Origin: Sulfurovum indicum | GTDB taxonomy: Bacteria > Campylobacterota > Campylobacteria > Campylobacterales > Sulfurovaceae | DNA length: 64,000 nucleotides | Assembly: GCF_014931715.1 (NCBI RefSeq) | Contig: NZ_CP063164.1 | Span: 1,302,001-1,366,000, forward strand | Reading direction: 5' to 3' | Part shown: one piece after another, positions 2,723 to 51,036 of the stretch | Layout: each line of letters starts with the position of its first letter | Numbering within the stretch: position 1 is the stretch's first letter | The notes under the pieces: model-generated | What the model was told of the DNA's origin: nothing | Seen by the model: the letters and a program-made list of their open reading frames with translations, nothing else | Databases searched by the model: none | Position numbers and translations under genes: made by a program

Positions 2723-2731
2723 ATCTTCTCC

Positions 2732-3145: not shown

Positions 3146-3151
3146 AACACC

Positions 3152-4786: not shown

Positions 4787-4795
4787 CTTGCTCTC

Positions 4796-5788: not shown

Positions 5789-5836
5789 TCTCTCTCCTTG
5801 GTGTGTTGTTACACACCCTTGTATTCATAAAAGCAT

Positions 5837-7353: not shown

Positions 7354-7436
7354 TTTTTCTCCTTTTGATCGAAAAGCTAAGAACAATTATTCTTCGTTTT
7401 TAACTTTTCAGTTTTTAATTTTTAATTGAGAAAATG

Positions 7437-8225: not shown

Positions 8226-8237
8226 TCTATTTTCTCC

Positions 8238-8879
8238 TTATCCTATTAATATATTGCTTCCTACAATAAGCGATACTATACCCGCTGTTGCAAAAGCACG
8301 TCTTACATTGCCGATATTACCCAAAAAGTGCTCATTGAGATAGAGCATGACCAGGCCGAACCCGACAAATATCAACATCACTCCGGCAGTAAAGGCACCT
8401 ATCATGGCAAAGTCGACATGTCCGCTGCCAACCGCACCAAGGGTAACAAGCATACCTCTCACACCTCCGGCTCCCATCAACAGCCCCATCGTAAAAGAGG
8501 AGCTTTGGGCAATGGTATCGTCATGTTCATGTGACTTTCCGAACCAGATATGGATATGCTCTTTTCCGTTATGCATATGTTTTCCCAGCTGTATGCGATC
8601 AGTAAGCACCATGAAAAGCAGATAGCAGCCCATGGCAATGATCACTGTTGCAGAGATAATATCTCCCCATCCCAGTATCTCTTCAGAGATAGGCATATGC
8701 TCAAGAAGCTTTGCAAAGAGGAAAAGACTTAAACCATGCCCCACAGCAAAAAGTGTTGTAATCAGCAGTGTTTTACGTTTGTTCTTTCCTATTGAGAAGT
8801 CTGCTATGGCAGTTAGGTGATCGGGACCGAAGGCATGCAAGATACCGTACCAAAAGATCAAAAGCAATGATAACTCCAT
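8238..8879 (-). CDS. Nickel/cobalt permease (NicO/NiCoT type)
   Basis: A 213-residue integral membrane protein with about six hydrophobic segments. The first holds HAFGPDH (H-x4-D-H, near residues 16-22), the metal-selectivity motif of NiCoT/NicO permeases. A short His-rich cytoplasmic loop (HMHNGKEHIHIWFGKSHEHDD, about 99-119) lies between segments. It likely imports nickel for hydrogenase assembly. It is the first gene of the hyp operon, with AAAGGAG before the ATG and a TetR-type operator 20 bp upstream. Cobalt transport cannot be excluded. Confidence 0.88.
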   Translation of the reverse strand: MELSLLLIFWYGILHAFGPDHLTAIADFSIGKNKRKTLLITTLFAVGHGLSLFLFAKLLEHMPISEEILGWGDIISATVIIAMGCYLLFMVLTDRIQLGKHMHNGKEHIHIWFGKSHEHDDTIAQSSSFTMGLLMGAGGVRGMLVTLGAVGSGHVDFAMIGAFTAGVMLIFVGFGLVMLYLNEHFLGNIGNVRRAFATAGIVSLIVGSNILIG

Positions 8880-8898: not shown

Positions 8899-8912
8899 TG
8901 AATAACGATTCA
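8899..8912 (-). promoter_or_regulatory. TetR-type operator of the hyp operon
   Basis: TGAATAACGATTCA is an exact match to the palindrome TGAAT-N4-ATTCA found before the hydrogenase and psr operons. It lies 20 bp upstream of the nickel permease ATG. On the minus strand a TATTAT hexamer, a possible -10, precedes it. Binding here would block transcription of the whole hyp operon. Confidence 0.65.
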
Positions 8913-23944: not shown

Positions 23945-25182
23945 TAGTACTGTCCTCCTTCTGCTTTTTTACCTGCTACCGCACTTGCTGCTGCATGAAT
24001 ACCGATTCCGATACTTGCAGCTGTCAATAATCCCAAACCAAACTCATCTACTGTTTTTTCAACACCGCCTGTCGGCGCTTTGATATGGGCATTAGCCATT
24101 GGTCTCTCATAGGCATATTTATCCCAAAAGTCCGGCTCAGAACATCCAATACATCCGCGTCCTACTCCAATAGGCCAGTTAACACCTTCGTTATAGCGTA
24201 TAATCGAACAGTTATTGAAGGTCATTGGTCCTTTACATCCCATTTTATAAAGACAGAAGTTGTTCTTCGCACCTTCATCTCCCCACTCTTCAACAAATTC
24301 TCCGGCATCAAAGTGGGCTCTTCTTTCACAGTTATCATGAATACGGTAACCAAATGCAAATTTCGGTCTGAGAAGAGAATCCAGTTCAGGAATAGTTCCT
24401 GTCAAGACAAAGTGCAGGAGTACTCCAACCATGTTGGAGGGGTTGGCCGGACAGGCAGGAATGTTGATCACCGGTTTGCCTTTTATAACATCCATTACCC
24501 CTACCGCATCCGTAGGATTCGGTGCAGCTGCCGGAATACCGCCATAGGTAGCACATGATCCAACCGCTACAACTGCAGCTGCTCCGGATGCAGCTCTTAA
24601 AAGATGTTCATGGAATGTTTCTGCTTTTGCACCGATCGTTCCATACTGACCATCCATCCCCATAGGAATAGAGCCTTCGACAAAAAGAAGATACTTGCCG
24701 TGAAAGTGCTCCATAGCTTCATCCATCTGTTTTTCAGCCTGATGTCCTGAGGCAGCCTGCAGTGTCTCATGGAATTCAAGTGAAATAATATCCAGGATGA
24801 TCTCATCGATCTGAGGTCCGTCAGAACGCAGTAACGCTTCTGAGTTACCTGCACAATCCTGCAGTTCTACCCATATTACCGGTACACGATTCATCAAAAC
24901 AGCCGCTTCTGCAACAAGTGGTGTAAAAGAAGCCGGCAGCATCATCATCGCAGTCGTAGCAGATGCCCATTTAAGGAAATCTCTCCTCTCAAGACCTTGC
25001 TCTTCAATGCTTTTGGTAAAATCCATACGATTGTTAAGAGGTTCAAGTTTCCTCAAATCTTCAATCCGCTTTTGACATTGTATATACAGTTCATCGTAGA
25101 AAGCATCACCTTTATTGGTGTCCACTTTTGCACTTTCAGCGGTAAACAGTTTTTTTACGGACTCTTCTTTATCTATACTCAT
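23944..25182 (-). CDS. hydA: HydA, small subunit of hyd1 [NiFe] hydrogenase
   Basis: A 412-residue small subunit with an unusually long pre-Tat region. The twin-Arg motif ERRDFLKW (R66, R67) is followed by a hydrophobic stretch. The proximal cluster has C110, GSCATYGG and IPACP, but Asn113 stands where the second Cys of CxGC is usual (DCAGNSE). Medial and distal ligands are complete (IHDNC, FC-x5-GC, NC, RGC-x2-C). A hydrophobic C-terminal anchor (about 375-400) ties it to the membrane with HydC. It is the first gene of the operon, with a TetR-type palindrome 54 bp upstream. Confidence 0.96.
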   Translation of the reverse strand: MSIDKEESVKKLFTAESAKVDTNKGDAFYDELYIQCQKRIEDLRKLEPLNNRMDFTKSIEEQGLERRDFLKWASATTAMMMLPASFTPLVAEAAVLMNRVPVIWVELQDCAGNSEALLRSDGPQIDEIILDIISLEFHETLQAASGHQAEKQMDEAMEHFHGKYLLFVEGSIPMGMDGQYGTIGAKAETFHEHLLRAASGAAAVVAVGSCATYGGIPAAAPNPTDAVGVMDVIKGKPVINIPACPANPSNMVGVLLHFVLTGTIPELDSLLRPKFAFGYRIHDNCERRAHFDAGEFVEEWGDEGAKNNFCLYKMGCKGPMTFNNCSIIRYNEGVNWPIGVGRGCIGCSEPDFWDKYAYERPMANAHIKAPTGGVEKTVDEFGLGLLTAASIGIGIHAAASAVAGKKAEGGQY

Positions 25183-25235: not shown

Positions 25236-25249
25236 TGAATTGGTATTCA
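25236..25249 (-). promoter_or_regulatory. TetR-type operator of the hyd1 operon
   Basis: TGAATTGGTATTCA is an exact TGAAT-N4-ATTCA palindrome 54 bp upstream of hydA1. On the minus strand it directly follows a TATATT hexamer, a possible -10. The hyd2 operon has the same arrangement. Confidence 0.7.
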
Positions 25250-28182: not shown

Positions 28183-28884
28183 TTAATGTTTTTTATGCCA
28201 TTTCATACCTGAGAAGATAGCATCCATAGAACCCTCTTTGCCAAATACCGCATTGAATATTGCCATATAAACATGAACAACTACAAATATAATAACACCC
28301 CACATAGCAATGTGATGAAGCTCTCTTACCCAGGCAAGTCCACCCAGCATGACCTCAAAACTTCTCATAGACTCGTAAAGTAAAGCACCCAGTCCTTCAT
28401 GATACACGTGCACATAGAGAATCAAACCTGTAAGGATCAATATGAACATCAACATATAAAAACCCAGATATGCTATAAACTGAAGTGGGTTATATGTACC
28501 TTTAAGATGCGGATGCTTTGATACCAGAAGGTAATATCCTATCTGTTTAATCCATGTTTTCGGATTTATAAAATCTTTAATAGATCCAATTTCATCACGG
28601 TATCTTTTTGCAAAAACAAAAAGATAACTTTTAAATACAACAACCGCAATCAGTACAAAGCCAAAAATTTCATGCCAGCCTCTAAAAAGAGCCTGCATAA
28701 AATTAGTCGGCTCCGAATTTGGAATAGGCGCTACAAACGGATCTGCAATATAAAATCCAGTCACTGTTAAAACTACTATGGATAGTGCCCTAATCCAGTG
28801 CTGCCATCTGTAGGCAGGAGTAAATTCCATTTCTCTTTCTATACAGGTATCTTCAGCAGATATCTCTTTATGAACAGTTTCCAT
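28183..28884 (-). CDS. hydC: HydC, cytochrome b of the hyd2 hydrogenase
   Basis: A 233-residue membrane cytochrome b related to HydC1. About four hydrophobic segments carry candidate haem His residues: HW (about 30), GWHE (about 70), and HH plus VH in the last segment (ELHHIAMWG, VVVHVY). It links HydA2B2 to the quinone pool. It is 9 bp after hydB2 with a suitable ribosome binding site and is separated from hydD2 by a 142-bp structured gap. Confidence 0.9.
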   Translation of the reverse strand: METVHKEISAEDTCIEREMEFTPAYRWQHWIRALSIVVLTVTGFYIADPFVAPIPNSEPTNFMQALFRGWHEIFGFVLIAVVVFKSYLFVFAKRYRDEIGSIKDFINPKTWIKQIGYYLLVSKHPHLKGTYNPLQFIAYLGFYMLMFILILTGLILYVHVYHEGLGALLYESMRSFEVMLGGLAWVRELHHIAMWGVIIFVVVHVYMAIFNAVFGKEGSMDAIFSGMKWHKKH

Positions 28885-28893
28885 TTTAGCTCC

Positions 28894-30630
28894 TTATACG
28901 CTACATGCGCCACCATAGAGTGGATCTACTTTATATTCACTCAACTTGTTGCCTTTGGTATCCATCACATGTACAGCACATGCAATACATGGATCATAAG
29001 AGTGAATAATTCTAATGATCTCCAGCGGTTGGGACAAATTCTCAATTTTAAGTCCAATGAGATCTGCTTCATACGGGCCTTTGACACCGCTTGCATCTTC
29101 AGGACTTGCATTCCATGTAGACGGTACAACTGCCTGATAGTTCTCACATACTCCATTTTTGATTCTAATCCAGTGACTCAACATTCCTCTTGGTACATCT
29201 CCGATCCCTCTACCTTTGTACTCCTTGTCTTTATCGATCACATATGGAGCACAGGTTTCCTGATCTACCTTAAGATTTTCTACAAGATTATAGAATGCTT
29301 TAATAGCATTGTCTGCAACAATCTCCGCCTGAAGTGCACGTGCTGCTGTTCTTCCGAGTGTTGTAAACAGAGCATCAACCGGCAGACCTGTCTCTTTAAG
29401 GAATCCGTCAACAGCATCTTTGACCAGCTTATTCCCTTTGGCATAATTGACAAGCAGACAGGCAAGAGGTCCAACTTCCATAGGCTTACCATCATATCTT
29501 GGTGATTTTATCCAGCTGTATTTACCTTTTGGATCAATATTTTTGGAATGGATCATTTCTCCGTCAGGACCTACACTCTCTCCATCCACATAACCTGTAT
29601 ATTTTGGTACAGTTGTACCATCATACGGATGCTGAGGATCATTGTCTGCATACCATGAGTGTGTTGCCTCTTCTGTGATAAGATCTTCATTGATCTCAAA
29701 AACCTTGCTTAAATCAGCATCCAGAATGTAGCCGCTTTCAAAGAGATACTCATCTCTTCCAACCATGAATTCCTGGAATGCCATAAAGTTCTTAACACCG
29801 GCAGGCTTCACAACAGAAGGTTCGGTTGCATACATCTCTGCAGCCATTTTGATATCTGCAATATAGGCATTTTTTACAAAGTTTGCCATATCTTTGTATT
29901 TTGTCAGATACTCACCCATTCTTGATGGATCCAGGATATCCATTACACAGGTAACACCACCGACTACAAGGCTTTGCGGATGTGGGTTTTTACCACCGAA
30001 AATTGCCATAAGCTGTGCTGCCAGTCTCTGCATCTCCAAAGCTTTCAGATAATGGGACAACGCGATCAGGTTCTGTTCAGGTGTGAATTTGTAAGTTCCA
30101 TGCCCCCAGTATGCATTGGCAAACGGTCCGAGTCCCTGAGGATCCTTAGCAAACTTTGCTACTGTCTCCTGTACTTTTTTTAGATCATTTTCACCTGTTG
30201 CAATAGGACTGTCTGTATATTTAAATGCAAGTTCGCTTGCTTTTTTAGGATCTGCACTAAGCGCAGAGACAATATCTACCCAGTCAACACCATGCAGATG
30301 ATAGAAGTGAACCACATGGTCATGAAAGAAGAGTGCTGCATTCATGAGTGTTCTCACCAATTCTGCATTAAGCGGGATTTTAATACCGAGTGCATCTTCA
30401 ACCGCCATGGTACTTTTCAAATAGTGGGAGTAGGTACACACACCACAAATTCTCTGCATCAACAGAGGTACATTTCTGGGGTCTCTTCCTTTAGCAATAA
30501 CTTCCAGTCCTCTCCAGAGCGTTGAAGATACAAATGCATCCTCTACTACACCTTCATCATTAACAACAACCTCGGCTCTTAAATGCCCTTCAATCCTTGT
30601 AATCGGGTCTACTACTACTCTTTTTGACAT
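28894..30630 (-). CDS. hydB: HydB, large subunit of hyd2 [NiFe] hydrogenase
   Basis: A 578-residue group 1-type large subunit starting MSKRVVVDPITRIEGH. L1 is RICGVCTYSH and L2 DPCIACAVH; the 24 residues after L2 are expected to be removed by HydD2. It lacks the N-terminal extension of HydB1. It lies 17 bp after hydA2 with GAGGAGA near the start. Periplasmic location follows from cotransport with the Tat signal of HydA2. Confidence 0.96.
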   Translation of the reverse strand: MSKRVVVDPITRIEGHLRAEVVVNDEGVVEDAFVSSTLWRGLEVIAKGRDPRNVPLLMQRICGVCTYSHYLKSTMAVEDALGIKIPLNAELVRTLMNAALFFHDHVVHFYHLHGVDWVDIVSALSADPKKASELAFKYTDSPIATGENDLKKVQETVAKFAKDPQGLGPFANAYWGHGTYKFTPEQNLIALSHYLKALEMQRLAAQLMAIFGGKNPHPQSLVVGGVTCVMDILDPSRMGEYLTKYKDMANFVKNAYIADIKMAAEMYATEPSVVKPAGVKNFMAFQEFMVGRDEYLFESGYILDADLSKVFEINEDLITEEATHSWYADNDPQHPYDGTTVPKYTGYVDGESVGPDGEMIHSKNIDPKGKYSWIKSPRYDGKPMEVGPLACLLVNYAKGNKLVKDAVDGFLKETGLPVDALFTTLGRTAARALQAEIVADNAIKAFYNLVENLKVDQETCAPYVIDKDKEYKGRGIGDVPRGMLSHWIRIKNGVCENYQAVVPSTWNASPEDASGVKGPYEADLIGLKIENLSQPLEIIRIIHSYDPCIACAVHVMDTKGNKLSEYKVDPLYGGACSV

Positions 30631-30647
30631 ATTTATCTCCTCTGCTT

Positions 30648-31820
30648 TTATTCTTTAGGTGGTTTAACGGATGCAATTGCTGCATGTGCTGCTATGCCTA
30701 CTGCTGTGGCTGTCAACAACCCTATTCCGATCTTATCAGCTGTTGCATCTGCGCCAAGTCCGCCGAATGTCGTATTGTAAAGTCGATCTTTGAGCGGTTC
30801 ATTCACTGTTCCCATTGTATCCCAGAAATCCGGTTCACTACATCCCATACATCCAAAACCGACCTGTACCGGCCAGGAAGTGCCTTGATTGAATTTGTTT
30901 TTTGAACAGTTGTTAAATGTATAAGGACCTTTACAGCCTACTTTGTAGAGACAATAGCCGTCTTTTGCACCTTCATCCCCGAACTGTTCAACAAATTCAC
31001 CGGCATCAAAGTGTCCTCTTCTTTCACACAGGTCATGAATTCTGAGCCTATATGCCCATTTTGGTCTATTGTATACATCCAGTGCAGGCAGAGTACCATA
31101 TAACAGATAGTGAAGCAGTGTTCCTACAATATTCTTTTCACTCGGAGGACATCCCGGTACATTGATTACAGTTTTATGTGTTACTTCACTGAGTGCTACC
31201 GAACCCGTTGGATTTGGAACAGCTGCCTGAACTCCACCAAATGCAGAACATGTTCCAATAGCAAAAATCGCTGCTGCTTTTTCAGAGGCCTCAATCGCAA
31301 TATCCTTACCTTTTTTGCCGTGCCCTCCAATAGTCAGGAAAGATCCCTCGTTTCCTGTCGGGATCCCTCCTTCAACCATGAGAATATATCGGCCGTCATA
31401 TTTTTCCATCGCACGTTCAAGATTCTGCTCTGCCTGCCAACCGGCAGCAGACATAAGAGTTTCTTGATACTCTAAAGAAATATAGTCGAATATAAGACTG
31501 TCAATAGTAGGCTCTGCAGAACGAAGAAGTGATTCCGTACATCCTGTACATTCAGCCATATGCAGCCAGATAATAGGCAACCTGTCTGCCACTTTTACGG
31601 CTTCAGCCATCAGTGGCGTAAAGGTTGAAGGCAATGATAGCAGCGCAGTCATCATACCTGTCCACTTCATAAAATCCCTTCTTCCGAAACCGTTTTCCTC
31701 TATTACTTCCTCTATAGAGCTCTCTTCCTTCATTTTTGGCAGCTTTTTAAGCTGCTCGATCCTCTCTTCAAACGATGCATATAATGCATCGTAAGATGTA
31801 TCTTTTCTACCCATACTCAT
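30648..31820 (-). CDS. hydA: HydA, small subunit of hyd2 [NiFe] hydrogenase
   Basis: A 390-residue small subunit. Tat motif GRRDFMKW (R47, R48) after a long N-region, then a hydrophobic stretch. The proximal cluster has the canonical ECTGCTE (C91, C94), GTCSAFGG and VPGCP; unlike HydA1 and the fusion protein it keeps the second Cys. Medial and distal sets are complete (IHDLC, YC-x5-GC, NC, FGC-x2-C). A hydrophobic C-terminal helix (about 360-383) anchors it. It is the first gene of hyd2, with two palindromes upstream. The two operons probably differ in redox or oxygen behaviour. Confidence 0.96.
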   Translation of the reverse strand: MSMGRKDTSYDALYASFEERIEQLKKLPKMKEESSIEEVIEENGFGRRDFMKWTGMMTALLSLPSTFTPLMAEAVKVADRLPIIWLHMAECTGCTESLLRSAEPTIDSLIFDYISLEYQETLMSAAGWQAEQNLERAMEKYDGRYILMVEGGIPTGNEGSFLTIGGHGKKGKDIAIEASEKAAAIFAIGTCSAFGGVQAAVPNPTGSVALSEVTHKTVINVPGCPPSEKNIVGTLLHYLLYGTLPALDVYNRPKWAYRLRIHDLCERRGHFDAGEFVEQFGDEGAKDGYCLYKVGCKGPYTFNNCSKNKFNQGTSWPVQVGFGCMGCSEPDFWDTMGTVNEPLKDRLYNTTFGGLGADATADKIGIGLLTATAVGIAAHAAIASVKPPKE

Positions 31821-31837: not shown

Positions 31838-31851
31838 TGAATAGCTATTCA
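31838..31851 (-). promoter_or_regulatory. TetR-type operator of the hyd2 operon
   Basis: TGAATAGCTATTCA is a perfect 14-bp palindrome 17 bp upstream of hydA2, between its ribosome binding site and a TAGAATATT -10-like sequence on the minus strand. Occupation should block transcription of hyd2. Confidence 0.75.
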
Positions 31852-31882: not shown

Positions 31883-31896
31883 TGAATATTCATTCA
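31883..31896. promoter_or_regulatory. Additional TetR-type operator between divergent hydrogenase operons
   Basis: TGAATATTCATTCA matches TGAAT-N4-ATTCA. It lies 31 bp beyond the hyd2 operator in the 291-bp space shared with the divergent group 4 operon, so it may act on either. Confidence 0.6.
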
Positions 31897-32013: not shown

Positions 32014-32039
32014 TATAATTTTTATTGAATGACTATTCA
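32014..32039 (+). promoter_or_regulatory. Promoter and TetR-type operator of the group 4 hydrogenase operon
   Basis: TATAAT at 32014-32019 is followed by TGAATGACTATTCA at 32026-32039. The palindrome covers the expected transcription start, a typical repressor position. The first gene begins 72 bp further on after a strong AGGAGG. Confidence 0.75.
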
Positions 32040-32111: not shown

Positions 32112-32396
32112 GTGAATGAAACATGTATACGAATGTATTGTGAATCAGAGGGTAGATGTCATGGTATTGTGTTAGTTTTTTTTAATAAAGAACAAAAAGA
32201 GAGAGTATTGTCCAAAGCGGATGAACTGGCTCACAGACATAGAGTTGCACCTGATATCTCTATTCGTAAAATGAATAAATATGGAGAAGTATTTATAGAA
32301 TTTTATGATGATTATCATAAAGAAGGCGGGTGTTTTTTTGAGGACCTTGTAGAAACACTTGGTGCTAAATTATGTGATTGTGAGGAGTTGTTATGA
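32112..32396 (+). CDS. Unrecognised small cysteine-containing protein, first gene of the group 4 operon
   Basis: A 94-residue protein with GTG start (32112) after AGGAGG. It has Cys in three places: TCIRMYC and GRC in the first 16 residues, GGC near 73, and CDC near the end. The middle is mixed alpha/beta with no known motif and no signal or membrane segment. It overlaps the next gene by 4 bp (ATGA), so it is coupled to the NuoB-like subunit. The Cys pattern could bind a metal or assist assembly of the complex. I do not recognise the family. Confidence 0.7.
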   Translation: MNETCIRMYCESEGRCHGIVLVFFNKEQKERVLSKADELAHRHRVAPDISIRKMNKYGEVFIEFYDDYHKEGGCFFEDLVETLGAKLCDCEELL

Positions 32397-33274
32397 GTAA
32401 AGTTATTCCCAAACTGTTTAGAATAAATACAGGAAGCTGTAATGGTTGTGATGTTGAGTTTGTAGCTACAGCCTTTGTAGATAAGTTTCAGCTTGACACC
32501 CTGGGCATAGAACTGGTGAGTGATGTAAAAGATGCCAACTTATTGGTAATTACAGGTCCTTTGTCTGCAAGAAGTGAATCTTTTTTGAAAAATGCCTTAG
32601 GTAAGCTAAAAAAACCCTTTGTTGTTGTTGGGATCGGAACCTGTTCTGTGAGTTGCGGGATTTTCAGGGACTCATATGCCATCAACGGACCTATTGACAA
32701 GTTCGTTGAAGTAGATGTCAATATAGCAGGCTGTCCTCCAAGACCTCAGTCTATTGCAGAAGGTATTGCCAAGGGTGTCAAAGTATTGGAACAGAAAATG
32801 CATGGTGAAGCAACACCCAAAGCTATTGATACCATCTTTAAAGACTTCTCTGCACCTGAGAGTTTTCGGGGAAGAATGTCACTTAATGAAGAGAACTGTA
32901 CAGCATGCAGAACATGTGAAACAGTCTGTCCGTCAAATGCAATAGAGATATCTTCGACAGACGATGGATGGTTTGTTCATAAAATCTGGCATAACAGCTG
33001 TTGTTTTTGTGGGAATTGTGCCTATTTTTGTCCAACAGACGCCATTTTTGCTACCAACAGCTTTGATACAGCAAAACTTCAAAGTGAAAAGTTCAGTGAT
33101 GTAAATATCGGCTATATAGACTATCAAAAATGTTCCTGTTGCGGAGAGATGTATATGCCACCTTCACAAGGACTTCTAAATAAATCATATATATATAATA
33201 ATGTAAGTAAATTAAATGAAAGAATCTGTTCAAAATGCAGAAAAGAGGCAAATTTCAAAAGGATGTATGCATGA
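32393..33274 (+). CDS. Group 4 [NiFe] hydrogenase small subunit (NuoB/HycG/CooL-like) fused to a ferredoxin
   Basis: A 293-residue fusion. Residues 1-140 are NuoB-like with the N2/proximal cluster Cys in SCNGCD, GTCSVSCG and AGCPPRP. Residues 160-220 hold two [4Fe-4S] motifs, CTACRTCETVCP and CCFCGNCAYFCP. The tail (about 240-285) has two further CxxC pairs (CSCC, CSKC) that look like a zinc ribbon. This joins CooL-like and CooX-like functions in one chain. It overlaps both neighbours by ATGA. No membrane segment is seen. Electrons from the NiFe site would pass through this subunit. Confidence 0.9.
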   Translation: MSKVIPKLFRINTGSCNGCDVEFVATAFVDKFQLDTLGIELVSDVKDANLLVITGPLSARSESFLKNALGKLKKPFVVVGIGTCSVSCGIFRDSYAINGPIDKFVEVDVNIAGCPPRPQSIAEGIAKGVKVLEQKMHGEATPKAIDTIFKDFSAPESFRGRMSLNEENCTACRTCETVCPSNAIEISSTDDGWFVHKIWHNSCCFCGNCAYFCPTDAIFATNSFDTAKLQSEKFSDVNIGYIDYQKCSCCGEMYMPPSQGLLNKSYIYNNVSKLNERICSKCRKEANFKRMYA

Positions 33275-33774
33275 ATATAGAAGAGTTTAACAATGCTATA
33301 AAAAGCAAAACTTTTGCAGGGTATGAACTGAAAGAAGATAAAGACAGCTATGGAAATGCTTCTGCCTGGATCATTTTAAATGATAAAAAAGATATAGAAG
33401 CCGTAGCTAACGCTGTAAAAGCCTACAAAGGCAGATGTATTGTTGCTACAGCCTATAAGAACCATAGCGGAACACATACAGTGATTTACCATTTTGATAT
33501 CGAGGGACTGATCATCAATGTACAGCTGGAAACAGATGACCAGAGTATTGTTTCCATTACCCCTACCCTTCCAAGCGCAAACTGGGCAGAAAGAGAGATA
33601 AGGGAGATGTATGGTGTTGAACCGATAGGACACCCTGATAAAGATAGACTATTTCTGGACTACAGTCTTGCAAAAGGGGTTTTAAATGAATATATATCAC
33701 TCTCCAAAATGCAGTTGGGAGTAAGTGAGACGGATATACTTTGGGAAAATGTAAACAAGGAAATAAAACAATGA
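33271..33774 (+). CDS. NuoC-like 30-kDa subunit (CooU / HycE N-terminal type)
   Basis: A 167-residue protein of the complex I 30-kDa family. The characteristic motif AEREIREMYGVEPIGHPD (about 113-130) is present. The start is ATG 33271, coupled to the previous stop; the longer frame is not needed. In group 4 hydrogenases this subunit packs against the large subunit as a separate protein (CooU) or as the N-terminus of HycE. It overlaps the next ATG by 4 bp. Confidence 0.9.
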   Translation: MNIEEFNNAIKSKTFAGYELKEDKDSYGNASAWIILNDKKDIEAVANAVKAYKGRCIVATAYKNHSGTHTVIYHFDIEGLIINVQLETDDQSIVSITPTLPSANWAEREIREMYGVEPIGHPDKDRLFLDYSLAKGVLNEYISLSKMQLGVSETDILWENVNKEIKQ

Positions 33775-34853
33775 AAGAAAAGATAACTATAGGACCATTT
33801 CATCCGGAACTGGAAGAGTCTGTCTATTTTAAACTTGTTGCAGATGAGAACAGAACCGTAACACAAGTAGAGATCATCAATGGATTTATTCACAGAGGTA
33901 TGGAGTCTCTTGTAACACAAAAGAACTTTATGCAAAATCTTATTTTGACAGAAAGGGTCTGCTCTCTGTGTTCAAATAATCATCCCTTTGCCTATGCTCT
34001 GGCAGTGGAAAAAATTTCCGGGGTCAAAGTACCTCCACGTGCAGAAGCATTGAGAGTCATTGCCGATGAAGTAAAAAGAGTAGCCTCAGACCTCTTTAAT
34101 CTTGCAATGTTGACACATTTGGCCCATCATCATGAACTGATGAAAGATACGATGGATGCCAGAGAGCATATGCAGGATCTTAAAGAGATCATCTGGGGGA
34201 ACAGAATGGATATGAGCGCAAATCAACTTACCGGTGTCAAATATGATTTAAATGAGGAAAAAATTAAACTTGTTTTGGACACGATCGCCATTGTAGAGCC
34301 AAAAGTAAACGCTCTTCTGGAAAGATACGAAAATGATGAAAGCATAAGAGCCAAAACGATCGGTGTAGGTGTATTGCCCTATAAAGATGCTTTAGCACTT
34401 GGAGTAACCGGACCGGTAGCAAGAGGAAGCGGTATCAACAATGATGTACGAATCGTTGCCCCCTACTCTCTTTATGGTGAACTTAAACCGAAAGCTACTC
34501 TCAGAGACGGTTGTGATGTACACTCCAGAGCTATGGCACGGTTTGGAGATATTGTTGAGGCGATCAGAATGATAAAAGAGGTTGTAAGAAATCTTCCAGA
34601 AGGTGATACATATGTAGAGAAGAGACCGCATATTCCGGCAGGAGAAGCTGTTGTCAGAGTAGAAGCACCAAGAGGAGAGCTTATTTACTATCTCAAAACA
34701 GACGGTTCCCAAAAACCGGTAAGAATGAAATGGAAAGTCCCCACTTTTACAAACTGGGAAGCGTTAAAAGTGATGATCCTGGGTGACAAGGTAGACAATG
34801 TAACCATGATACTCAACAGTATTGACCCTTGTATATCCTGTACTGAAAGATAG
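33771..34853 (+). CDS. Group 4 [NiFe] hydrogenase large subunit (CooH/EchE-like)
   Basis: A 360-residue large subunit of the NuoD/HycE family. It retains both nickel motifs, RVCSLCSNNH (about residue 61) and C-terminal DPCISCTER, so it is a hydrogenase and not a complex I subunit. It ends directly after L2, so no protease processing is needed, as in CooH-type proteins. Start ATG 33771 overlaps the NuoC-like stop. Group 4 enzymes normally sit on a membrane arm (NuoH- and NuoL-like subunits), but none is encoded in this operon. Confidence 0.93.
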   Translation: MKEKITIGPFHPELEESVYFKLVADENRTVTQVEIINGFIHRGMESLVTQKNFMQNLILTERVCSLCSNNHPFAYALAVEKISGVKVPPRAEALRVIADEVKRVASDLFNLAMLTHLAHHHELMKDTMDAREHMQDLKEIIWGNRMDMSANQLTGVKYDLNEEKIKLVLDTIAIVEPKVNALLERYENDESIRAKTIGVGVLPYKDALALGVTGPVARGSGINNDVRIVAPYSLYGELKPKATLRDGCDVHSRAMARFGDIVEAIRMIKEVVRNLPEGDTYVEKRPHIPAGEAVVRVEAPRGELIYYLKTDGSQKPVRMKWKVPTFTNWEALKVMILGDKVDNVTMILNSIDPCISCTER

Positions 34854-34862
34854 GAGAGATGA

Positions 34863-35369
34863 ATGAGAAACAATAGATTTATATATGCTGACCCCGACAA
34901 GTGCATAGGCTGTATCAATTGTGAATTAGCCTGTTCTGCCAGCCATATGGGATTGGATATCGATACTGTTTACGAGATGGCATTAGGAGGTGAGACTATT
35001 GCACCTTCAAGAAACAGAGTGATCAAAGTAGAAGGCAAAACCGCTCCTATGCAGTGTATGCAGTGTCCTGATGCCCCCTGCCTTGAAGGGTGTCCTGTTG
35101 ATATCATCAGGTTTGAAGATAACTTTGTCAAATATTATGAAGATGACTGTATCGGCTGTCAAAGCTGTGATATGGTCTGTCCCTATGGTGCAGTCGTAAT
35201 GGCAGCCAACATAAAACCAGATGCTCCTGTAAGCCAGATGGTAGCACTTACATGTGACCTGTGCGGCGGTGAGAATGGGAAACAGGCCTGTATCTCCATA
35301 TGCCCTACGGATGCCATAAGCTTGATTGATTACAAACAATTTGAGCAGATACAGACTTTACGAAGATAA
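34863..35369 (+). CDS. Four-cluster ferredoxin (CooF/HycB/HydN-like)
   Basis: A 168-residue protein with four Cys-rich motifs: CIGCINCELAC near 14-24, CMQCPDAPCLEGCP near 65-78, CIGCQSCDMVCP near 97-108, and CDLCGG with CISICP near 126-142. This matches the four-[4Fe-4S] polyferredoxins that carry electrons to or from group 4 hydrogenases. It has no Tat signal or membrane segment, so it is cytoplasmic. GGAGAGATG-like spacing places a ribosome binding site upstream. It is probably the bridge between the hydrogenase core and the GltD-like flavoprotein. Confidence 0.9.
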   Translation: MRNNRFIYADPDKCIGCINCELACSASHMGLDIDTVYEMALGGETIAPSRNRVIKVEGKTAPMQCMQCPDAPCLEGCPVDIIRFEDNFVKYYEDDCIGCQSCDMVCPYGAVVMAANIKPDAPVSQMVALTCDLCGGENGKQACISICPTDAISLIDYKQFEQIQTLRR

Positions 35370-37318: not shown

Positions 37319-37543
37319 ATGAATAAATTATTGACAATTGCTCTGTTACTCTTGTATTTACCTATATTCTCAATAGCTTCTGAGACTCTGGGTAGGATGA
37401 ATGGACAAAATATTACAACTTATTTTCTTCTAAACGAACAGGCTAATCAAATAAAATTAAGTGATAAAAGATTAAGAGAATACTGTCTACTAAACCAATA
37501 TAGATATTTTAAAGTTTATCAGGAAAGAAATTTAAATATATGA
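37319..37543 (+). CDS. Small exported protein of unknown function
   Basis: A 74-residue protein with a Sec-type signal sequence (MNKLLTIALLLLYLPIFSIA, about 1-20). The mature part is short and polar with one Cys and no recognised domain. AAAGGAAAAAGGAC lies before the ATG. Its stop overlaps the tetR1 start by 4 bp (ATGA), so it is cotranscribed with that regulator. The function cannot be told from sequence. Confidence 0.6.
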   Translation: MNKLLTIALLLLYLPIFSIASETLGRMNGQNITTYFLLNEQANQIKLSDKRLREYCLLNQYRYFKVYQERNLNI

Positions 37544-38124
37544 GAAATAAATTCAAAAAAAAGAATACGATAATCCTGTCGGCATTAAAACTTTTTTCAA
37601 AAAAAGGTTTTTACAATACTACGATATCAGAAATTTCAAAAAACATGGGAGTCAGTGTAGGAAATATTTATAACTATTTTCCATCAAAGAACTCTTTGGC
37701 AAAAGCATCAATAACATTTGTTGCAAAAAAACTGGCTACTAATTTAAGATATATAAACAATCAAAATATATCTTCCCAAGAGAAGGTATATATGTTTGTC
37801 ATAAGTTACCTGAACTTTTTAAAAGAACACCCTGAAATGATAGATTATTTTTTCAGGGTCTACTTATCCAACAGAGAGGTTTTTTGTAAAGAAGAAGACT
37901 GCGGGTTCCAACTCGCAAAAGACTTTATTGATGAAATTGAAATACTTATAGACACGGGAACAGAAAACGGTGAATTCAAAAAACAGAATTTCTATGTCGG
38001 TTTTTCCTGTATTACCGGAATACTTGGAGGCATAACATTTTTAAATGGTGAAAAAGTTCTGGAAGATGACTTAAATATTTATGCCCGGGATCTGTCAACT
38101 GCTATTTGTAAGGCTTTATCATAA
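37540..38124 (+). CDS. TetR-family regulator 1
   Basis: A 194-residue TetR/AcrR protein. The N-terminal HTH (about 10-56) holds the recognition segment VSVGNIYNYFPSK. The ligand domain has Cys near the motif RVYLSNREVF (CKEEDC, about residues 112-117) and another in FSCITG, possible redox or metal contacts. It is a paralog of the regulator at 50443-51036, sharing the YLSNREVF stretch and recognition helix. It follows the group 4 hydrogenase operon. It is the likely ligand of the TGAAT-N4-ATTCA palindromes, alone or with its paralog. Confidence 0.88.
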   Translation: MRNKFKKKNTIILSALKLFSKKGFYNTTISEISKNMGVSVGNIYNYFPSKNSLAKASITFVAKKLATNLRYINNQNISSQEKVYMFVISYLNFLKEHPEMIDYFFRVYLSNREVFCKEEDCGFQLAKDFIDEIEILIDTGTENGEFKKQNFYVGFSCITGILGGITFLNGEKVLEDDLNIYARDLSTAICKALS

Positions 38125-38790
38125 AAGCCTATAACATATTAACCCACTCTTTATTGATCTAGACTGAAAGACTGTTAAAAACAAACATATCCACTGAAAA
38201 CCTGTAACACTCTAAAAACCCTACACCTGACTTCTGAATAAAATCAAAGAGTATCCTGAAAGCAAAACTGTTTTTATACTAAAAGAACTTTACGCACCCT
38301 TATTGAAAATACGCAAACAACTCTCTTACGGCTATTCATAAAACAGTTGACAAACGATTTATAAAATCAACTTTTCACCTCTTGTCTTTTCTCCCAAAGA
38401 CTCCAGTAGTACAATTATCCTTCAATACTAAATAAAGAGGAAAGCTTAAAGTGAATTACCATTCACTTTTTTAAAACTCTTTTAAAACTTCTTTGGTTAG
38501 CATAACAATATTATATATTTATAATAAGATGAAGTAGATATATTTTCAGGTTTTTATGATTATTTAATATACAGCCAGAAACAGGAAAAATTGATTTGTC
38601 CAAAACATGTTGCATGATTATCATCTTATGCATAACTACAGTCTTGTTTTTTGGTTGTATACTAAATAATTATTGATATCAGGATGAACAGTCATTACAA
38701 ACCTTCATGGTAATGAAAGTAATCTCACAGAACGGATCACCTGATATAGCAAAAGTCATCACAAAAATAAAATCACTGGAGACCAGCAGA
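38125..38790. other. Long non-coding stretch upstream of nrdD
   Basis: AT-rich, with no supported gene. It holds the palindrome at 38452-38465 (listed separately) and a TATACT hexamer (38658-38663) that may be the nrdD -10. An in-frame extension of nrdD up to 38707 has no ribosome binding site and no family similarity, so the gene is started at 38791. Confidence 0.5.
38452..38465. promoter_or_regulatory. TetR-type operator in the nrdD upstream region
   Basis: TGAATTACCATTCA is an exact TGAAT-N4-ATTCA match, with arms extending to 9 bp (AAAGTGAAT and ATTCACTTT). It lies about 340 bp upstream of nrdD and 327 bp after tetR1, so its target promoter is unclear. The anaerobic ribonucleotide reductase would fit a regulon of anaerobic functions. 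Confidence 0.6.
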
Positions 38791-45118: not shown

Positions 45119-47581
45119 TTACACCTTTCTAACTTCAACAATTGTTTCATGCATAGCTGCACTACCGAAGACTGGTTCAATAATGTCCTCAATAATATGA
45201 TTATCCGCAGCACCATTCCCCTTCGCAAAAGTAAGTCCGTCAGAATCTGCACCAAACCCGTGAATAAAGAACAGGTTGTTTGGACCGATCTTCTCCGTCG
45301 GATATGCTTTAATGGTGATCTGACCGACCTTACTTTTCACTTCAACGTTATCACCAAATTTAATACCTTTGCTTTCAGCAACTCTTTTATTGATCCATAA
45401 ATAATTCTCCGGCATAAGCTCAAGAAGCATCACATTGTTCGATGAGCTGTTCTGCGTAAATTGTGCATGACGGCCGGTGATGAACTTGAATTTTCCTTCA
45501 GGTATTTGAGTAAACTGTGTATCATCCCAGCTTGGCATAGGTGACACACCTCTCTTTGCCAGGTTTGGAAGTACACACTCCACTTTTCCTGATGGTGTTT
45601 TAAACTCTTTTTTAAGTACAGCAATCTCTTTTTCATCCACACATGTATCATGGAAAACATCTGACTTGAATTCTCCTTCAACCACGGAATAAAATCTTTC
45701 TTTTTTAGGATACCACTGGAACTCATTGTTTGATATTTGTTTCCAGAATTTATCCATGTTGGGGTAGTACACACCTTCTTTCAATAATGTTTTGTATGCT
45801 TCTTCTCCATATTTCTCAACAACCATATGTTTATTTATCTCTTCTTGAGAGTGTCGGAAGGCATCAGCGAGATCAAACCCGTCTTCTTTATAAACACTTT
45901 CCTCTCCTCTCTCTTTAATTGCATCCTGTACTTCAGAGTCGAATTTTTTTGTGATCTCAAACAATGGTCTGGAAACTTTTTCTGCCAATCCGCGAATAAT
46001 CTCAATTACCGGTTTCGTATCGTACATTGGGTCGATCACTTTTTGTCTCAACGCAATAGCAGGCTGTGCCGAACCGAATGATTTGACAGGGTCTTCTCTC
46101 TCCAGGTAGGTACACTCAGGCAAAATAACATCTGCCATCATCGCTGTGTCTGAAGGCATCGTATCAATCACAACAACCAGATCCATTTTTTCAAACAGCT
46201 GTTTTGTTTTTGCAGTATTAGGGATACTCAACATCGGGTTCTGCTTATAAACAAACATACTTCTTACCGGATAGGCAGCCTTCTCTTCCAGAATAGTGTT
46301 TCTCCAACCGATCCAAGAACCCGAACCGCCTATAATGGCCGCTGCTTTTTTATCAATTCTCTCTTGTGCATTATCATACATTGGTGTATTGATATTGTGT
46401 TTTCCCAAAGGAAGTTTCTTACCAAAGATAATACCCCCTTCACGGTCAATACCGCCACCCATTGCAGAGAAAATAGCCTGAGCCCGTCTAAGTTGGAAAT
46501 CCTGTTTGCTCCAAGCAGTCCTTCTGCCCTGATAATATATGGCTCTGGGTGCTGCTGCCATAAAATCTCTGGCTACCTGTCTTATATCAGATGCCCTGAT
46601 ACCTGTTATTTTTTCAGCCCATTCAGGAGTATATTTACTTGTTAGGATATGCTCTTTATATTCCTCAAAACCATTGAAATTCAATTCAACGAACTTTTTG
46701 TTATATATATTCTCTTCAATTGCAACATATGTCAATGCCAAAACAAAAGCAAGGTCTGTACCCACCTCAATCGGAAGCCACTTGTCTGCATGTGACGCTG
46801 TATTGGTAAAACGCGGATCAACAACTATTAATTTTGCACCTCTTCCCTTTGTTCTCTTGAACAGATCCATTGTATCTGGAGTAACAATCGCTTCTGCTCT
46901 GTTCGCACCGGCCATAATAACATAGTTGGCATTTTCCAGATCAGCCTGTCCGTAACCACCGATCGTCAGAGCATATCCTGATACAGTTGTCTGAAGACAG
47001 ATAGAAGCATGGTTTACAAAGTTTGATGATCCAAGTTTGTCCTGCATAAATACTTTATACGTATGCTCAGCCATACCTTCACCGGCACAGTAACCGATAG
47101 TGGAACGGTTGTCCTCTTCTTCTTCCAGAATGGCAGCAAGACCTTTGAATCTGTCCGTACCATTCAAGATCGCCTCATAGGCCTCATCCCAGGTAACTCT
47201 TTTGTATTTTCCGTCACCCTTCTCTCCGATACGAACAAGCGGGTACTTCAACCTGTCAGGATCATACAAGGCCTGTATCCCTGCATTTCCTCTTGGACAA
47301 AGCATATTCTTCGATTTCGGGAACATGGGATTTGGATCAAGTTTAGTAACGACTCCATCTTCCATTCTCGCAATCGCTGCACATTTGTTAACGCACATTT
47401 CACATAAAGTAGGAACAAGTTTAAGCTCTTTGGCTTCACCGGTCTTTGTGGTGAAGGTCAGCTTTTTTTCCACTTTATCATCCTTAGCAAGTAAATTTGT
47501 CGCACTGACAGCGGACCCACCTACAATACTCATAGCTACAGTCCCCTGAAGAAACTTTCGTCTCGACATTTCAATCTGCAT
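45119..47581 (-). CDS. psrA: PsrA/PhsA-type molybdopterin polysulfide or thiosulfate reductase
   Basis: An 820-residue catalytic subunit of the DMSO reductase family. The Tat signal starts SRRKFLQG (about 6-13). An N-terminal [4Fe-4S] site C-x2-C-x3-C plus MLCPRG lies near 59-97. The likely Mo/W ligand is Cys in NHASICLQT (about residue 195), as in polysulfide and thiosulfate reductases. It reduces polysulfide, sulfur or thiosulfate in the periplasm with electrons derived from H2 through menaquinone. Start ATG 47581 has AAGGAGC. Its exact substrate cannot be decided from sequence. Confidence 0.9.
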   Translation of the reverse strand: MQIEMSRRKFLQGTVAMSIVGGSAVSATNLLAKDDKVEKKLTFTTKTGEAKELKLVPTLCEMCVNKCAAIARMEDGVVTKLDPNPMFPKSKNMLCPRGNAGIQALYDPDRLKYPLVRIGEKGDGKYKRVTWDEAYEAILNGTDRFKGLAAILEEEEDNRSTIGYCAGEGMAEHTYKVFMQDKLGSSNFVNHASICLQTTVSGYALTIGGYGQADLENANYVIMAGANRAEAIVTPDTMDLFKRTKGRGAKLIVVDPRFTNTASHADKWLPIEVGTDLAFVLALTYVAIEENIYNKKFVELNFNGFEEYKEHILTSKYTPEWAEKITGIRASDIRQVARDFMAAAPRAIYYQGRRTAWSKQDFQLRRAQAIFSAMGGGIDREGGIIFGKKLPLGKHNINTPMYDNAQERIDKKAAAIIGGSGSWIGWRNTILEEKAAYPVRSMFVYKQNPMLSIPNTAKTKQLFEKMDLVVVIDTMPSDTAMMADVILPECTYLEREDPVKSFGSAQPAIALRQKVIDPMYDTKPVIEIIRGLAEKVSRPLFEITKKFDSEVQDAIKERGEESVYKEDGFDLADAFRHSQEEINKHMVVEKYGEEAYKTLLKEGVYYPNMDKFWKQISNNEFQWYPKKERFYSVVEGEFKSDVFHDTCVDEKEIAVLKKEFKTPSGKVECVLPNLAKRGVSPMPSWDDTQFTQIPEGKFKFITGRHAQFTQNSSSNNVMLLELMPENYLWINKRVAESKGIKFGDNVEVKSKVGQITIKAYPTEKIGPNNLFFIHGFGADSDGLTFAKGNGAADNHIIEDIIEPVFGSAAMHETIVEVRKV

Positions 47582-48089
47582 GTAAGCTCCTTAAAATAAT
47601 GAGTTTAATTTCAAGTTATAAATAAGACTAAAAAGGTCCAATTCATAACCTCCACTTATATAGTACACCTTTAATTCTTTTTTTATTCTAAAATTCATCT
47701 ATTTTATTGAATAACTATTCATTTTTTACTGATTAATACGGAAATATCGGTGAGAAGGCTTAAAATTGACCTATAAAAATATCTTTTCAGGAGCTGTTTA
47801 AACAATTTAAACTGATATTTATACCTTAAACAAAACTGAGTGGTCATATTTATTTGAATATATTATATTTATTCTCAATTCCAGAAAGAGTGTTTCTGGA
47901 AAGATATACTATTTTCAGAAATCTCCATACAGAGCTCTCATTTCCATATCCTAAATGTACCTGTCTTGTTTCAATAATCGTGCTATCAAGTATACTCTTC
48001 TGTAATAGTTCAGAACTATGTATACAGATCAGCAATAGCATCAATCCATATTATTATCAGAATTTGTTTTGAAAAAATGATCTTTGTAT
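47582..48089. other. Non-coding region upstream of psrA
   Basis: An AT-rich region with the psr promoter and a palindrome at 47708-47721. Short frames on both strands between 47850 and 48072 have odd composition and no start signals and are not called. A TATATA hexamer about 75 bp upstream of psrA is a possible -10. Confidence 0.45.
47708..47721 (-). promoter_or_regulatory. TetR-type operator of the psr operon
   Basis: TGAATAACTATTCA is an exact match to the shared palindrome, 127 bp upstream of psrA. It is farther from the start codon than in the hydrogenase operons. It ties the sulfur reductase to the same regulon. Confidence 0.65.
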
Positions 48090-48261: not shown

Positions 48262-49554
48262 TTACTGTGCTGTACAAACAGAACAGACATCAAAAGTACG
48301 AAAGATAAATGTAGCCTCTTCAATACTTTTTGAGCCTACCATTGCCCGAATTGCAATACCCTTCTCCTGAGACGTACCATGACTAAGGTTCCACTGTGTA
48401 GGTGTAATGATCTCATAATTAACGATCTTTCCCTTTTCTACAGTTGTCTTATGAATCAATGATCCTCTTGAAGCCTCTACAATACCTACACCTTCAAAGC
48501 TGTCATGAGTCTGATTGGCTTCCAAGACACAGGAAGGCTCATCTAAAGACAAATCATATAAAAGTTCTTTACAATATCCCAGCAACTGAGCAATCTCATT
48601 CACACGTGCAAAAATACGTGTATACAATGAATCCTTATAGCGTTTATGCAAACTCCGGACAATTGGTGTTTTAGCTACCATTCCCCGTGCAAGCGGCCCT
48701 ACTTCATAAAGTCTGTTCTTATATGTAACAGCTTTTGCTACAGTACCTTTCTGCTCTGATTCTTCTACATAACGTATATCAGCATTAGCGACACTCGTTG
48801 CGATCAATTTACCTGAAGGTCTTCCCATATCTTTTCCAAAGACGATAAAACGGTCATAGCTCTGTCCTGTGCTTAGCATACCGTATACTTCCAGTCCGTC
48901 TATCAACTTTCTGAGATCACCATTAATCTTAGACAGTGAAGAGACAGACTCAATCTCCAAATAGTCACTAAAAGAGATTCCTGTCATAACCTGTTCAAAA
49001 AAACGTATTGCTTCATCAACAAACCCCTCAGCCTGCATCACATCCACATAAGTTGGATCACAGGTAATACCTCCCGGAACCGCATAGGAAGAGTGGGGCC
49101 ACTGACCTGCAAAAACGGCCAGTGCTTTTGTAATAGTTGATGAAAGATATGATGCCTTTAATGCATAGTTTTCACCACTTTGCGTAGCTGTCAGGTGTTC
49201 AAACTGTGGCAAGATGACCAGATAGAACCATTTGATATGGTTTTGAATGACTTCACACGCCAGCGTAAACTCCCGGATCTTTTCAGCTTTGCTTGTCAAC
49301 TGAATGCTGATCCCCTGACTCTGATAACCATTCTCGATCGCTCTGACCGCTGCAAGAAGATGTGCATGATTGCAGATACCGCAGACCCTGGGGGTGATCA
49401 CCAGTGCATCTCTTGGTACTTTTCCCACAAGTATCTCCTCGATACCACGGTAAAATCCAAAACCTATGTGAACATCTTCTATCTTGCCATTCTTAAATGT
49501 AAAGTCAAGCTCAGCTTCGCCCTCTATCTTCTCAATCAGTTTTTTCACGACCAT
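48262..49554 (-). CDS. HupV-like [NiFe] hydrogenase large subunit, no C-terminal extension
   Basis: A 430-residue large subunit, shorter than the group 1 proteins here. L1 is RVCGICNHAH (about 52) and the protein ends at DVCSVCTAQ, directly after L2. Lack of a cleavable tail is typical of H2-sensing HupV/HoxC subunits. No signal is present. ATG 49554 with AGAGGA is chosen over a TTG seven codons earlier; it overlaps the small-subunit stop by 23 bp. It is in one operon with tetR2. A sensor role is inferred; a group 2 cytoplasmic uptake enzyme is the alternative. Confidence 0.88.
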   Translation of the reverse strand: MVVKKLIEKIEGEAELDFTFKNGKIEDVHIGFGFYRGIEEILVGKVPRDALVITPRVCGICNHAHLLAAVRAIENGYQSQGISIQLTSKAEKIREFTLACEVIQNHIKWFYLVILPQFEHLTATQSGENYALKASYLSSTITKALAVFAGQWPHSSYAVPGGITCDPTYVDVMQAEGFVDEAIRFFEQVMTGISFSDYLEIESVSSLSKINGDLRKLIDGLEVYGMLSTGQSYDRFIVFGKDMGRPSGKLIATSVANADIRYVEESEQKGTVAKAVTYKNRLYEVGPLARGMVAKTPIVRSLHKRYKDSLYTRIFARVNEIAQLLGYCKELLYDLSLDEPSCVLEANQTHDSFEGVGIVEASRGSLIHKTTVEKGKIVNYEIITPTQWNLSHGTSQEKGIAIRAMVGSKSIEEATFIFRTFDVCSVCTAQ

Positions 49555-50440
49555 AGTCGATGATCCTCTCTTCAAGTCGTTTGATCCTGAAACTTTTACT
49601 AACCCCTGTAGCTGTTAAATAAGCCCGTCTTGGTACGCCAAGAGGCATAGTAGCAGGAATCCCCATATTGGTCTTGGTTTCAAAAAGAGTCGTTTTGGGG
49701 AAATCAGGCTCAGTACAGCCAAAACAAGGCATACCGGCAACCGTTTTGGAACTCACATCATTCCAAAGTATTTTATTACAGCTTCCTCTTGTGTATGGGC
49801 CCTGACACCCCTGCTCATAAAAAAGACACCCCTCTTTAAGCCCAAAACCTTTAGTATCAATCTTCCACTCAAAGTATTCATTTCGTACACATCCTGTATG
49901 CACGGTAATACCGTAAAGTTCCTGTGGACGATGCATCTCATCGAGAGGAATATGCCTCTTGTTGGCAATCATCATCAACACATAGGAGAGCCACTTGGGA
50001 TGAATAGGACAGCCAGGAAGGGAGATCAGTTTGGAAGCATATCTCTTATAACGCTTCCCCGGCTCTTCTCCGTCAAAACAAAATCCTGTGATCGCATCAG
50101 GATCATGTTGCTTAAAGACCCCGCCAAAGGTAGCACAGGTACCTGCTGAAATAATAAATTTTGCTTTTTTTGCATAGGTCTCCACAAAGGAAATGACCTC
50201 AACACCACTTTTTACAAAGCCCTCTTCCCGGAAAGAACCCTCCAGTATCAGTACATCACAAGGAACTTTTCCCTTGATGACTTCCTCCAGTGTATATTCT
50301 GTTTCAAGTACCGGATGGTACAGTAGTTCAAAGTGTGAAAGTATGGAGAAAAGATCGTAGTGATTGAAAAAAGAGTGGGTATTACCATTGCAGGTTATGG
50401 ACTGAAGCCAAAGTAGTTTGGGTTTGGCCTCTGCTGACAC
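49532..50440 (-). CDS. HupU-like [NiFe] hydrogenase small subunit
   Basis: A 302-residue small subunit without Tat signal or membrane anchor. It begins LLWLQSITCNGNTHSF, where C17 is present and Asn20 replaces the second proximal Cys, as in some group 2 enzymes such as cyanobacterial HupS. GTCATFGG and LPGCP supply the other proximal ligands. Distal and medial ligands are complete (VHTGC, EGC-x5-GC, SC, MPC-x2-C). It starts 2 bp after the tetR2 stop. No HupT-like kinase or HupR-like regulator is nearby. Confidence 0.88.
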   Translation of the reverse strand: MSAEAKPKLLWLQSITCNGNTHSFFNHYDLFSILSHFELLYHPVLETEYTLEEVIKGKVPCDVLILEGSFREEGFVKSGVEVISFVETYAKKAKFIISAGTCATFGGVFKQHDPDAITGFCFDGEEPGKRYKRYASKLISLPGCPIHPKWLSYVLMMIANKRHIPLDEMHRPQELYGITVHTGCVRNEYFEWKIDTKGFGLKEGCLFYEQGCQGPYTRGSCNKILWNDVSSKTVAGMPCFGCTEPDFPKTTLFETKTNMGIPATMPLGVPRRAYLTATGVSKSFRIKRLEERIIDYGREKTD

Positions 50441-50442
50441 TG

Positions 50443-51036
50443 CTATGCCTTGAGTGCAAAATAGATATTACGGGAGATATCATCGATGTAGTATTCGATC
50501 TCTTTGGGAAGTACCCCCTCACCCTTGAGAAAGACCATGCCTCCAAGATATCCCATAAAAAGTCCAAATGCAGAGAAAAAGTCCTGATTACGAAGTTCTC
50601 CTGAGGAGACAGCATCATCAAAAAAGATCATAATCTCTGTAATGAATCCCGAAACACAGACCATTCCTTCACACCCACTGCTGAATACTTCCCGGTTTGA
50701 AAGGTAGACACGCAGAAAATACTCGATCATCTCCGGTTTCTCTTTTGCTGTAGTAAAATAAACCTCAACTATCTTTCTGATCTTCTCTTGCGAACTGATA
50801 TCCATCATGTTGACTTCTCGTATCTTTGAACCAAGCACCTCGGAGGTATATTTAATAATTTCCTGTGCAAGAATATCTTTTGATGAGAAGTAGTTATAGA
50901 GGTTACCTACACTCATCCCGAGCTTAGTTGCTATATCAGGGATAGTGGTTTTATGAAAACCATTTAAAGAGAAAAGCTGTAGTGCCGCCTGAATGATCGA
51001 CTCGCGCTTTAATGTTTTTTTATCCTTTATATCCAC
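50443..51036 (-). CDS. TetR-family regulator 2, in operon with the HupUV-like hydrogenase
   Basis: A 197-residue TetR/AcrR protein. The HTH (about 14-60) contains MSVGNLYNYFSSK, almost the same recognition helix as in TetR1. The shared segment RVYLSNREVF is followed by Cys residues (SSGCEGMVC, about 114-122). It is the first gene of a three-gene operon with the HupU- and HupV-like subunits, spaced by 2 bp. No clear TGAAT-N4-ATTCA site is seen upstream of this gene itself. The context suggests that it receives the H2 signal from the hydrogenase, which is inference. Confidence 0.88.
   Translation of the reverse strand: MDIKDKKTLKRESIIQAALQLFSLNGFHKTTIPDIATKLGMSVGNLYNYFSSKDILAQEIIKYTSEVLGSKIREVNMMDISSQEKIRKIVEVYFTTAKEKPEMIEYFLRVYLSNREVFSSGCEGMVCVSGFITEIMIFFDDAVSSGELRNQDFFSAFGLFMGYLGGMVFLKGEGVLPKEIEYYIDDISRNIYFALKA

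Follow-up and report, generated by a model that had tools for sequence, protein, structure and literature searches.

The tetR2-hydrogenase operon

Campylobacterota and Aquificota play a major part in H2 oxidation at hydrothermal vents and in sulfidic waters, and in the literature searched we found no explanation of how they sense H2. The question is raised in a concrete form by a locus of Sulfurovum indicum (genome of 2.21 Mb, single contig), where a gene for a TetR-family regulator is combined with genes of a sensor-like NiFe hydrogenase. Here, we analysed the stretch of 64 kb that carries this locus (the window). On its minus strand, tetR2 (50443..51036; 197 aa; Pfam TetR_N, 2.3e-15) is the first gene of one operon with the small subunit (49532..50440; 302 aa; Pfam NiFe_hyd_SSU_C, 1.3e-23) and the large subunit (48262..49575; 437 aa; Pfam NiFeSe_Hases, 4.5e-39) of the hydrogenase. 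A sequence-only reading of this DNA had placed the tetR2 stop 2 bp from the small-subunit gene and described the latter as overlapping the large-subunit gene; the coordinates confirm both, with an ORF overlap of 44 bp, or 23 bp if translation of the large subunit begins with the first ATG. As claimed, this subunit also terminates right after the second nickel motif (...FDVCSVCTAQ). No kinase or NtrC-type regulator lies near the operon, and genome-wide searches gave only generic kinases for HoxJ (the best at 32% identity and some 0.78 Mb away) and only receiver-domain matches for HoxA, with no HoxA-type regulator. The claimed lack of a HupT/HupR pair is supported by these searches.

A different picture emerged for the proposed kinship with HupUV. 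In a tree of 26 large-subunit sequences, which included five HupV/HoxC, group 2a and group 1 rows, the window protein falls within a 14-row clade (100/100 support) of Campylobacterota and Aquificota proteins, among them Aquifex and Sulfurospirillum rows (L065, L067, L053). The five HupV/HoxC sequences form a separate clade of their own (100/100), and group 2a and group 1 are separate as well. By its sequence, the hydrogenase is therefore Aquifex-type, group 2d, and not a group 2b HupUV/HoxBC enzyme. The label group 2d rests on this tree and on printed usage, not on a HydDB classification, and it was chosen because it is the printed name for the Campylobacterota enzyme huaSL in the passages of PMC12286921. 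Of the circuit first envisaged, a TetR regulator coupled to a sensor-like hydrogenase without HupT/HupR is retained, while strict HupUV identity has to be abandoned.

The best solved relatives of both subunits are subunits of the Huc hydrogenase (small-subunit match 2.3e-53), and no signal peptide was seen on the small subunit. The large subunit ends in CTAQ without a C-terminal maturation peptide; the peptide is also absent in 5/5 group 2b rows, and C-terminal extensions are present on the group 2a rows and on two full-length group 1 rows. The equivalent of HoxC I62 is kept and that of F110 is a valine, both being residues which we take to line the gas channel. Nickel and Fe-S ligand cysteines are conserved in the subunits.

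The sequence-only reading had asked whether the tetR-hydrogenase synteny is conserved across Campylobacterota. We surveyed 397 genomes, in 113 of which the hydrogenase was found (large-subunit match at E 1e-41 or better), and took as adjacency a TetR2 homologue upstream, on the same strand and within 3 kb. tetR2 directly precedes the hydrogenase in 111 of these 113 genomes, which are related, so the counts are not independent; both exceptions (G294, G299) break at contig ends. As the arrangement recurs in 111/113 genomes, it is far beyond chance, and the synteny can be regarded as conserved. The TetR gene is interrupted in G208. TetR2 matches without the hydrogenase occur in three genomes, as a fragment in G204 and in G143 and G347, which keep tetR2, its cysteine motif and the operator described below and have no group 2d hydrogenase. 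Among 50 loci from named genomes, TetR is adjacent to the hydrogenase in 35; the other 15 comprise four without upstream DNA, seven Aquificaceae-like and four Campylobacterota loci without an adjacent TetR (L047, L049, L055, L072). A TetR2 homologue (1e-59 or better) was found in 8 of 9 Aquificota-type genomes with the hydrogenase, mostly away from it, and in Aquificaceae the hydrogenase stands apart from tetR2, often within hyp operons.

Several observations concern the surroundings. Recombinase/integrase-like genes (51536-56069, by inspection) directly adjoin the operon, and the tetR2-hydrogenase unit is also plasmid-borne in Sulfurovum mangrovi and Sulfurimonas paralvinellae, inside H2-metabolism islands. 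An integrase flanks tetR on the S. paralvinellae plasmid, which together with the recombinase/integrase-like genes adjoining the operon here suggests that the module moves. Elsewhere in the window (10134-14209), a NirB-like fusion of a pyridine-nucleotide oxidoreductase, a BFD domain and a NiFe hydrogenase small subunit (806 aa) is followed by a large subunit, and many Campylobacterota have frames of a similar length (about 806-850 aa). On a Runella slithyformis plasmid (L286), a group 2a-like hydrogenase is preceded by two TetR genes, which may be a parallel case.

A palindrome ahead of hydrogenase and maturation genes

Most loci have a copy of the palindrome TGAAT-N4-ATTCA, a putative TetR2 operator, between the hydrogenase and the next hydA. 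Exact copies number 10 in the S. indicum genome (reversed control, 1). Seven of them are inside the window (binomial P of at least seven, 1.9e-9), and all seven are intergenic, though 88% of the window is coding. TGAATAACGATTCA (8899..8912) is 19 bp ahead of the hyp maturation operon (1970..8879, minus strand; names by inspection and from annotated homologues), whose first gene is NiCoT/HupE-like. TGAATTGGTATTCA (25236..25249) is 53 bp ahead of hydA1 and 2 nt past a TAGTAT box, the gene being part of the uptake hydrogenase hydAB (22082..25182, minus strand). Two copies precede hydA2 of a second uptake hydrogenase operon, hydABC (28183..31820, minus strand): TGAATAGCTATTCA (31838..31851), at 17 bp, and TGAATATTCATTCA (31883..31896). 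TGAATGACTATTCA (32026..32039) is 72 bp ahead of an ech/coo-like hydrogenase cluster (32112..35369, plus strand), and TGAATAACTATTCA (47708..47721) is 126 bp upstream of a psrA-like polysulfide reductase gene (45119..47581, minus strand; named by sequence inspection) of the psrABC operon (43333-47581). We propose all of these transcription units as targets. The seventh copy (38452..38465) lies between tetR1 and the gene at 38707, nrdD-like by inspection. About 70 kb outside the window, at genome position 1434493 (L127), one copy lies ahead of a PAS-domain gene, after which comes a second homologue of psrA; of the remaining two, one is at a small STAS-like gene and one looks unrelated.

A short gene of zinc-ribbon, transposase-like type (8998-9633) points away from the hyp operon. 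Its homologues, annotated as transposase on two plasmids, are again found next to the operator and hyp genes in other genomes, and for this reason the gene may be domesticated and co-regulated.

Does the palindrome follow tetR2 across genomes? For 40 genomes with tetR2, 30 hydA promoter loci were returned, and the operator is present within one mismatch in 30/30, with 21 exact, when dinucleotide shuffles expect 0.90 and 0.00, respectively, for 30 promoters. For 40 genomes chosen as lacking tetR2, 30 loci were likewise obtained, and G143 and G347 were removed because tetR2 is present there; the operator is found in 2 of the remaining 28 (G165 and G284, the latter a contig fragment). The hydA promoters of G143 and G347 carry the exact operator in 2/2 cases. 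Within 1 kb upstream of hypB, 12/15 tetR2 genomes have an exact copy and 13/15 one within one mismatch, versus 0/15 and 2/15 in genomes without tetR2. A -10-like TANNNT ends 0-5 nt ahead of the operator in 21/30 hydA promoters (background 21%), and this placement just downstream of a -10-like box makes the position repressor-type. Thus, TetR2 very probably acts at TGAAT-N4-ATTCA sites, and the suggestion that the circuit belongs to H2 metabolism gains from the way in which a conserved operator ahead of hydA and hyp tracks TetR2.

No conserved palindrome was seen ahead of tetR2 itself in the upstream regions compared, and raw genome-wide operator counts in 397 genomes, taken unsummed, show no obvious excess over the control in many AT-rich ones; being noisy there, the counts were set aside as a test. 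When exact sites were viewed in nine further genomes, seven had some at hydA, hyp or DUF4198/nickel genes, and the remaining exact sites of those seven look unrelated. For G381 and G105, with four exact sites each, none was at hydA or hyp among the contexts viewed. In the Aquificota, operators precede the nickel-uptake cluster and hypC in a Hydrogenothermaceae locus (L066), flanking hypB-tetR2-hydrogenase, and the Aquifex-type L275/L281 shows the order tetR2, ferredoxin, operator, hydA. Of seven stretches of Aquificaceae type, four (L278, L279, L281, L282) have exact operators ahead of hydA, hyp or nickel genes, and L280, L283 and L284 have no exact copy, with a one-mismatch copy at hydA in L284; a TetR2 match was found for L280 (G402), yet no labelled tetR2 ORF lies in the stretch.

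The paralogue tetR1 (37540..38124, plus strand) could be a second binder of the same sites. Its helix-turn-helix is closely similar to that of TetR2, and the TetR1-type genes of L194 and L195 have the operator ahead of themselves, so one may ask if the sites here are bound mainly by TetR1, with TetR2 serving another target. We consider this very improbable: TetR1-type genes were found in only 5 of the 115 genomes in which TetR2 is matched at 1e-40 or below, yet the hydA operator is universal in the tetR2 set above. TetR1 itself carries the cysteine motif in a shifted register, as do 4/7 members of its class (motifs read by eye). Further TetR1-type paralogues (L192, L193, L194, L195, L197), some of them close to hydrogenase or ech genes and some preceded by the operator, suggest a small family of H2-linked TetR regulators.

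What TetR2 may respond to

The AF2 model of TetR2 (pLDDT 91.5) has the TetR fold, with a TetR_N helix-turn-helix (residues 14-60, 50857..50997, minus strand; Pfam match) and an all-helical ligand domain, as expected of a TetR family member. A cysteine pair, C122-X4-C127 (50656..50673, minus strand), marks the start of helix 7: in the model C122 is just ahead of helix 123-144 and C127 within its first turn. CX4C is present in 84 of 85 TetR2-class proteins, of which 82 were counted by script and two (L115, L060) by eye, the sole exception being a paralogue unlinked to a hydrogenase, and in all six Aquificota-type copies viewed.

We infer that TetR2 represses an H2-metabolism regulon. It would bind the palindromes past the -10 box of hydA and before hyp, blocking transcription, and in S. 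indicum would also act before the ech-like and psrA genes. The cytoplasmic group 2d hydrogenase of the same operon would be its H2 detector: H2 would be oxidised at the NiFe site, electrons would leave via the iron-sulfur clusters of the small subunit and alter the redox state of TetR2, most likely at C122/C127, or else the reduced hydrogenase would bind TetR2. Release of TetR2 would then allow uptake hydrogenase, maturation and nickel-uptake genes to be made. Taken as a whole, this chain, from H2 through the hydrogenase to TetR2 as repressor of the H2 regulon, is the account we lean towards. Its most specific form, a one-component, kinase-free switch in Campylobacterota and Aquificota in which hydrogenase electrons pass straight to C122/C127 and the operators are vacated, is a tentative proposal and rather doubtful.

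That the hydrogenase supplies the H2 signal is suggested by the operon linkage, the sensor-like anatomy, the absence of a HoxA-type regulator and the very low expression in S. multivorans. According to the passages of PMC5357620, hydB is expressed there in nearly every condition, and hupL shows hardly any expression; in those of PMC12286921, huaSL (group 2d) of A. butzleri falls with H2. These expression data count on both sides, as they are unlike a main metabolic enzyme and also speak against the sensor chain. The same passages of PMC12286921 report hynAB of A. butzleri up 2.3-6.2-fold with H2, which would agree with the model if that strain carries tetR2, and no difference in hynAB between H2 and formate in Sulfurospirillum. 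The four Campylobacterota loci without an adjacent TetR, the valine in place of HoxC F110 and the raw operator counts without obvious excess in many AT-rich genomes also weigh against the chain.

Could the signal sensed by TetR2 be a different one, for example redox state, a metabolite or acyl-CoA? We see this as unlikely, though as the most serious of the alternatives. It would account for G143 and G347, where regulator and operator persist without the hydrogenase, and for the separation of the genes in Aquificaceae, both of which argue against the hydrogenase as the source of the signal. A catalytic role was proposed for such hydrogenases in the passages of PMC5357620 and PMC2628731, and the modelled fold of TetR2 resembles the acyl-CoA-binding FadR. 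However, near-obligate operon linkage in Campylobacterota, the missing maturation peptide, as in sensor hydrogenases, and the expression pattern just mentioned are hard to reconcile with it.

The operators at 47708, before psrA, and upstream of the second psrA operon (1434493) point to a further option, namely thiol-based sensing by TetR2 of polysulfide or another form of reactive sulfur (or O2), with CX4C being modified and hydABC and psrABC derepressed for H2-driven polysulfide respiration. The conservation of CX4C even where the hydrogenase was lost would fit. However, the targets seen repeatedly in other genomes are hydA, hyp and nickel-uptake genes rather than psr, and the hydrogenase linkage would be left unexplained, so we regard this as improbable. 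Repression by TetR2 with a signal from the hydrogenase thus remains our preferred reading, and the pairing, in many bacteria that use sulfur and hydrogen, of a repressor gene with a sensor-like hydrogenase in a single operon, with the apparent operator at H2-uptake genes, suggests an undescribed switch of H2 metabolism. As repressor, operator and targets can be named in genera that are culturable, both H2 sensing and the role of group 2d hydrogenases become directly testable.

Comparison with known systems

In its fold, the modelled TetR2 is closest to FadR/YsiA of B. subtilis, a FadR-type TetR repressor (TM 0.81), and TGAAT-N4-ATTCA presumably resembles the FadR consensus. TetR2 differs from these in its hydrogenase-gene targets and its CX4C pair, and an acyl-CoA ligand is unsupported.

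In the literature searched, with subscription journals mostly outside it, no TetR operator or regulon for hydrogenases in Campylobacterota or Aquificota is described; there is only a remark by Kruse et al. (2017, PMC5357620) that a TetR-like gene lying ahead of hupSL in S. multivorans may encode a hupSL repressor. The gene order there is the same as here, and in the passages of that paper neither an operator nor a hydABC/hyp regulon is named, nor is HupSL given a sensing role. What appears new here, on the evidence of the sequences, is the operator TGAAT-N4-ATTCA as the TetR2 target.

Aquifex hydrogenase III, S. multivorans HupSL and A. butzleri HuaSL are the known group 2d enzymes, and the Aquifex and Sulfurospirillum rows match the window protein in clade and anatomy. 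So far, such enzymes have been proposed as ferredoxin-reducing or left without a role (passages of PMC5357620 and PMC2628731), while here the enzyme is tied to a repressor and a regulon. In the passages of PMC2628731, the group 2 hydrogenase of Nautilia is called H2-sensing by phylogeny and its role is discussed as ferredoxin coupling.

The group 2b systems, HupUV-HupT-HupR and HoxBC-HoxJ-HoxA, resemble this locus in that their NiFe hydrogenase is cytoplasmic and lacks a C-terminal peptide, that its genes are grouped with the gene of a transcription regulator, and that genes for uptake hydrogenase and hyp genes are close by. They belong, however, to another clade, in which HoxC has F110 where the protein studied here has valine, and their output runs through a kinase and a sigma-54 activator, whereas in S. 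indicum it is apparently a one-component TetR repressor.
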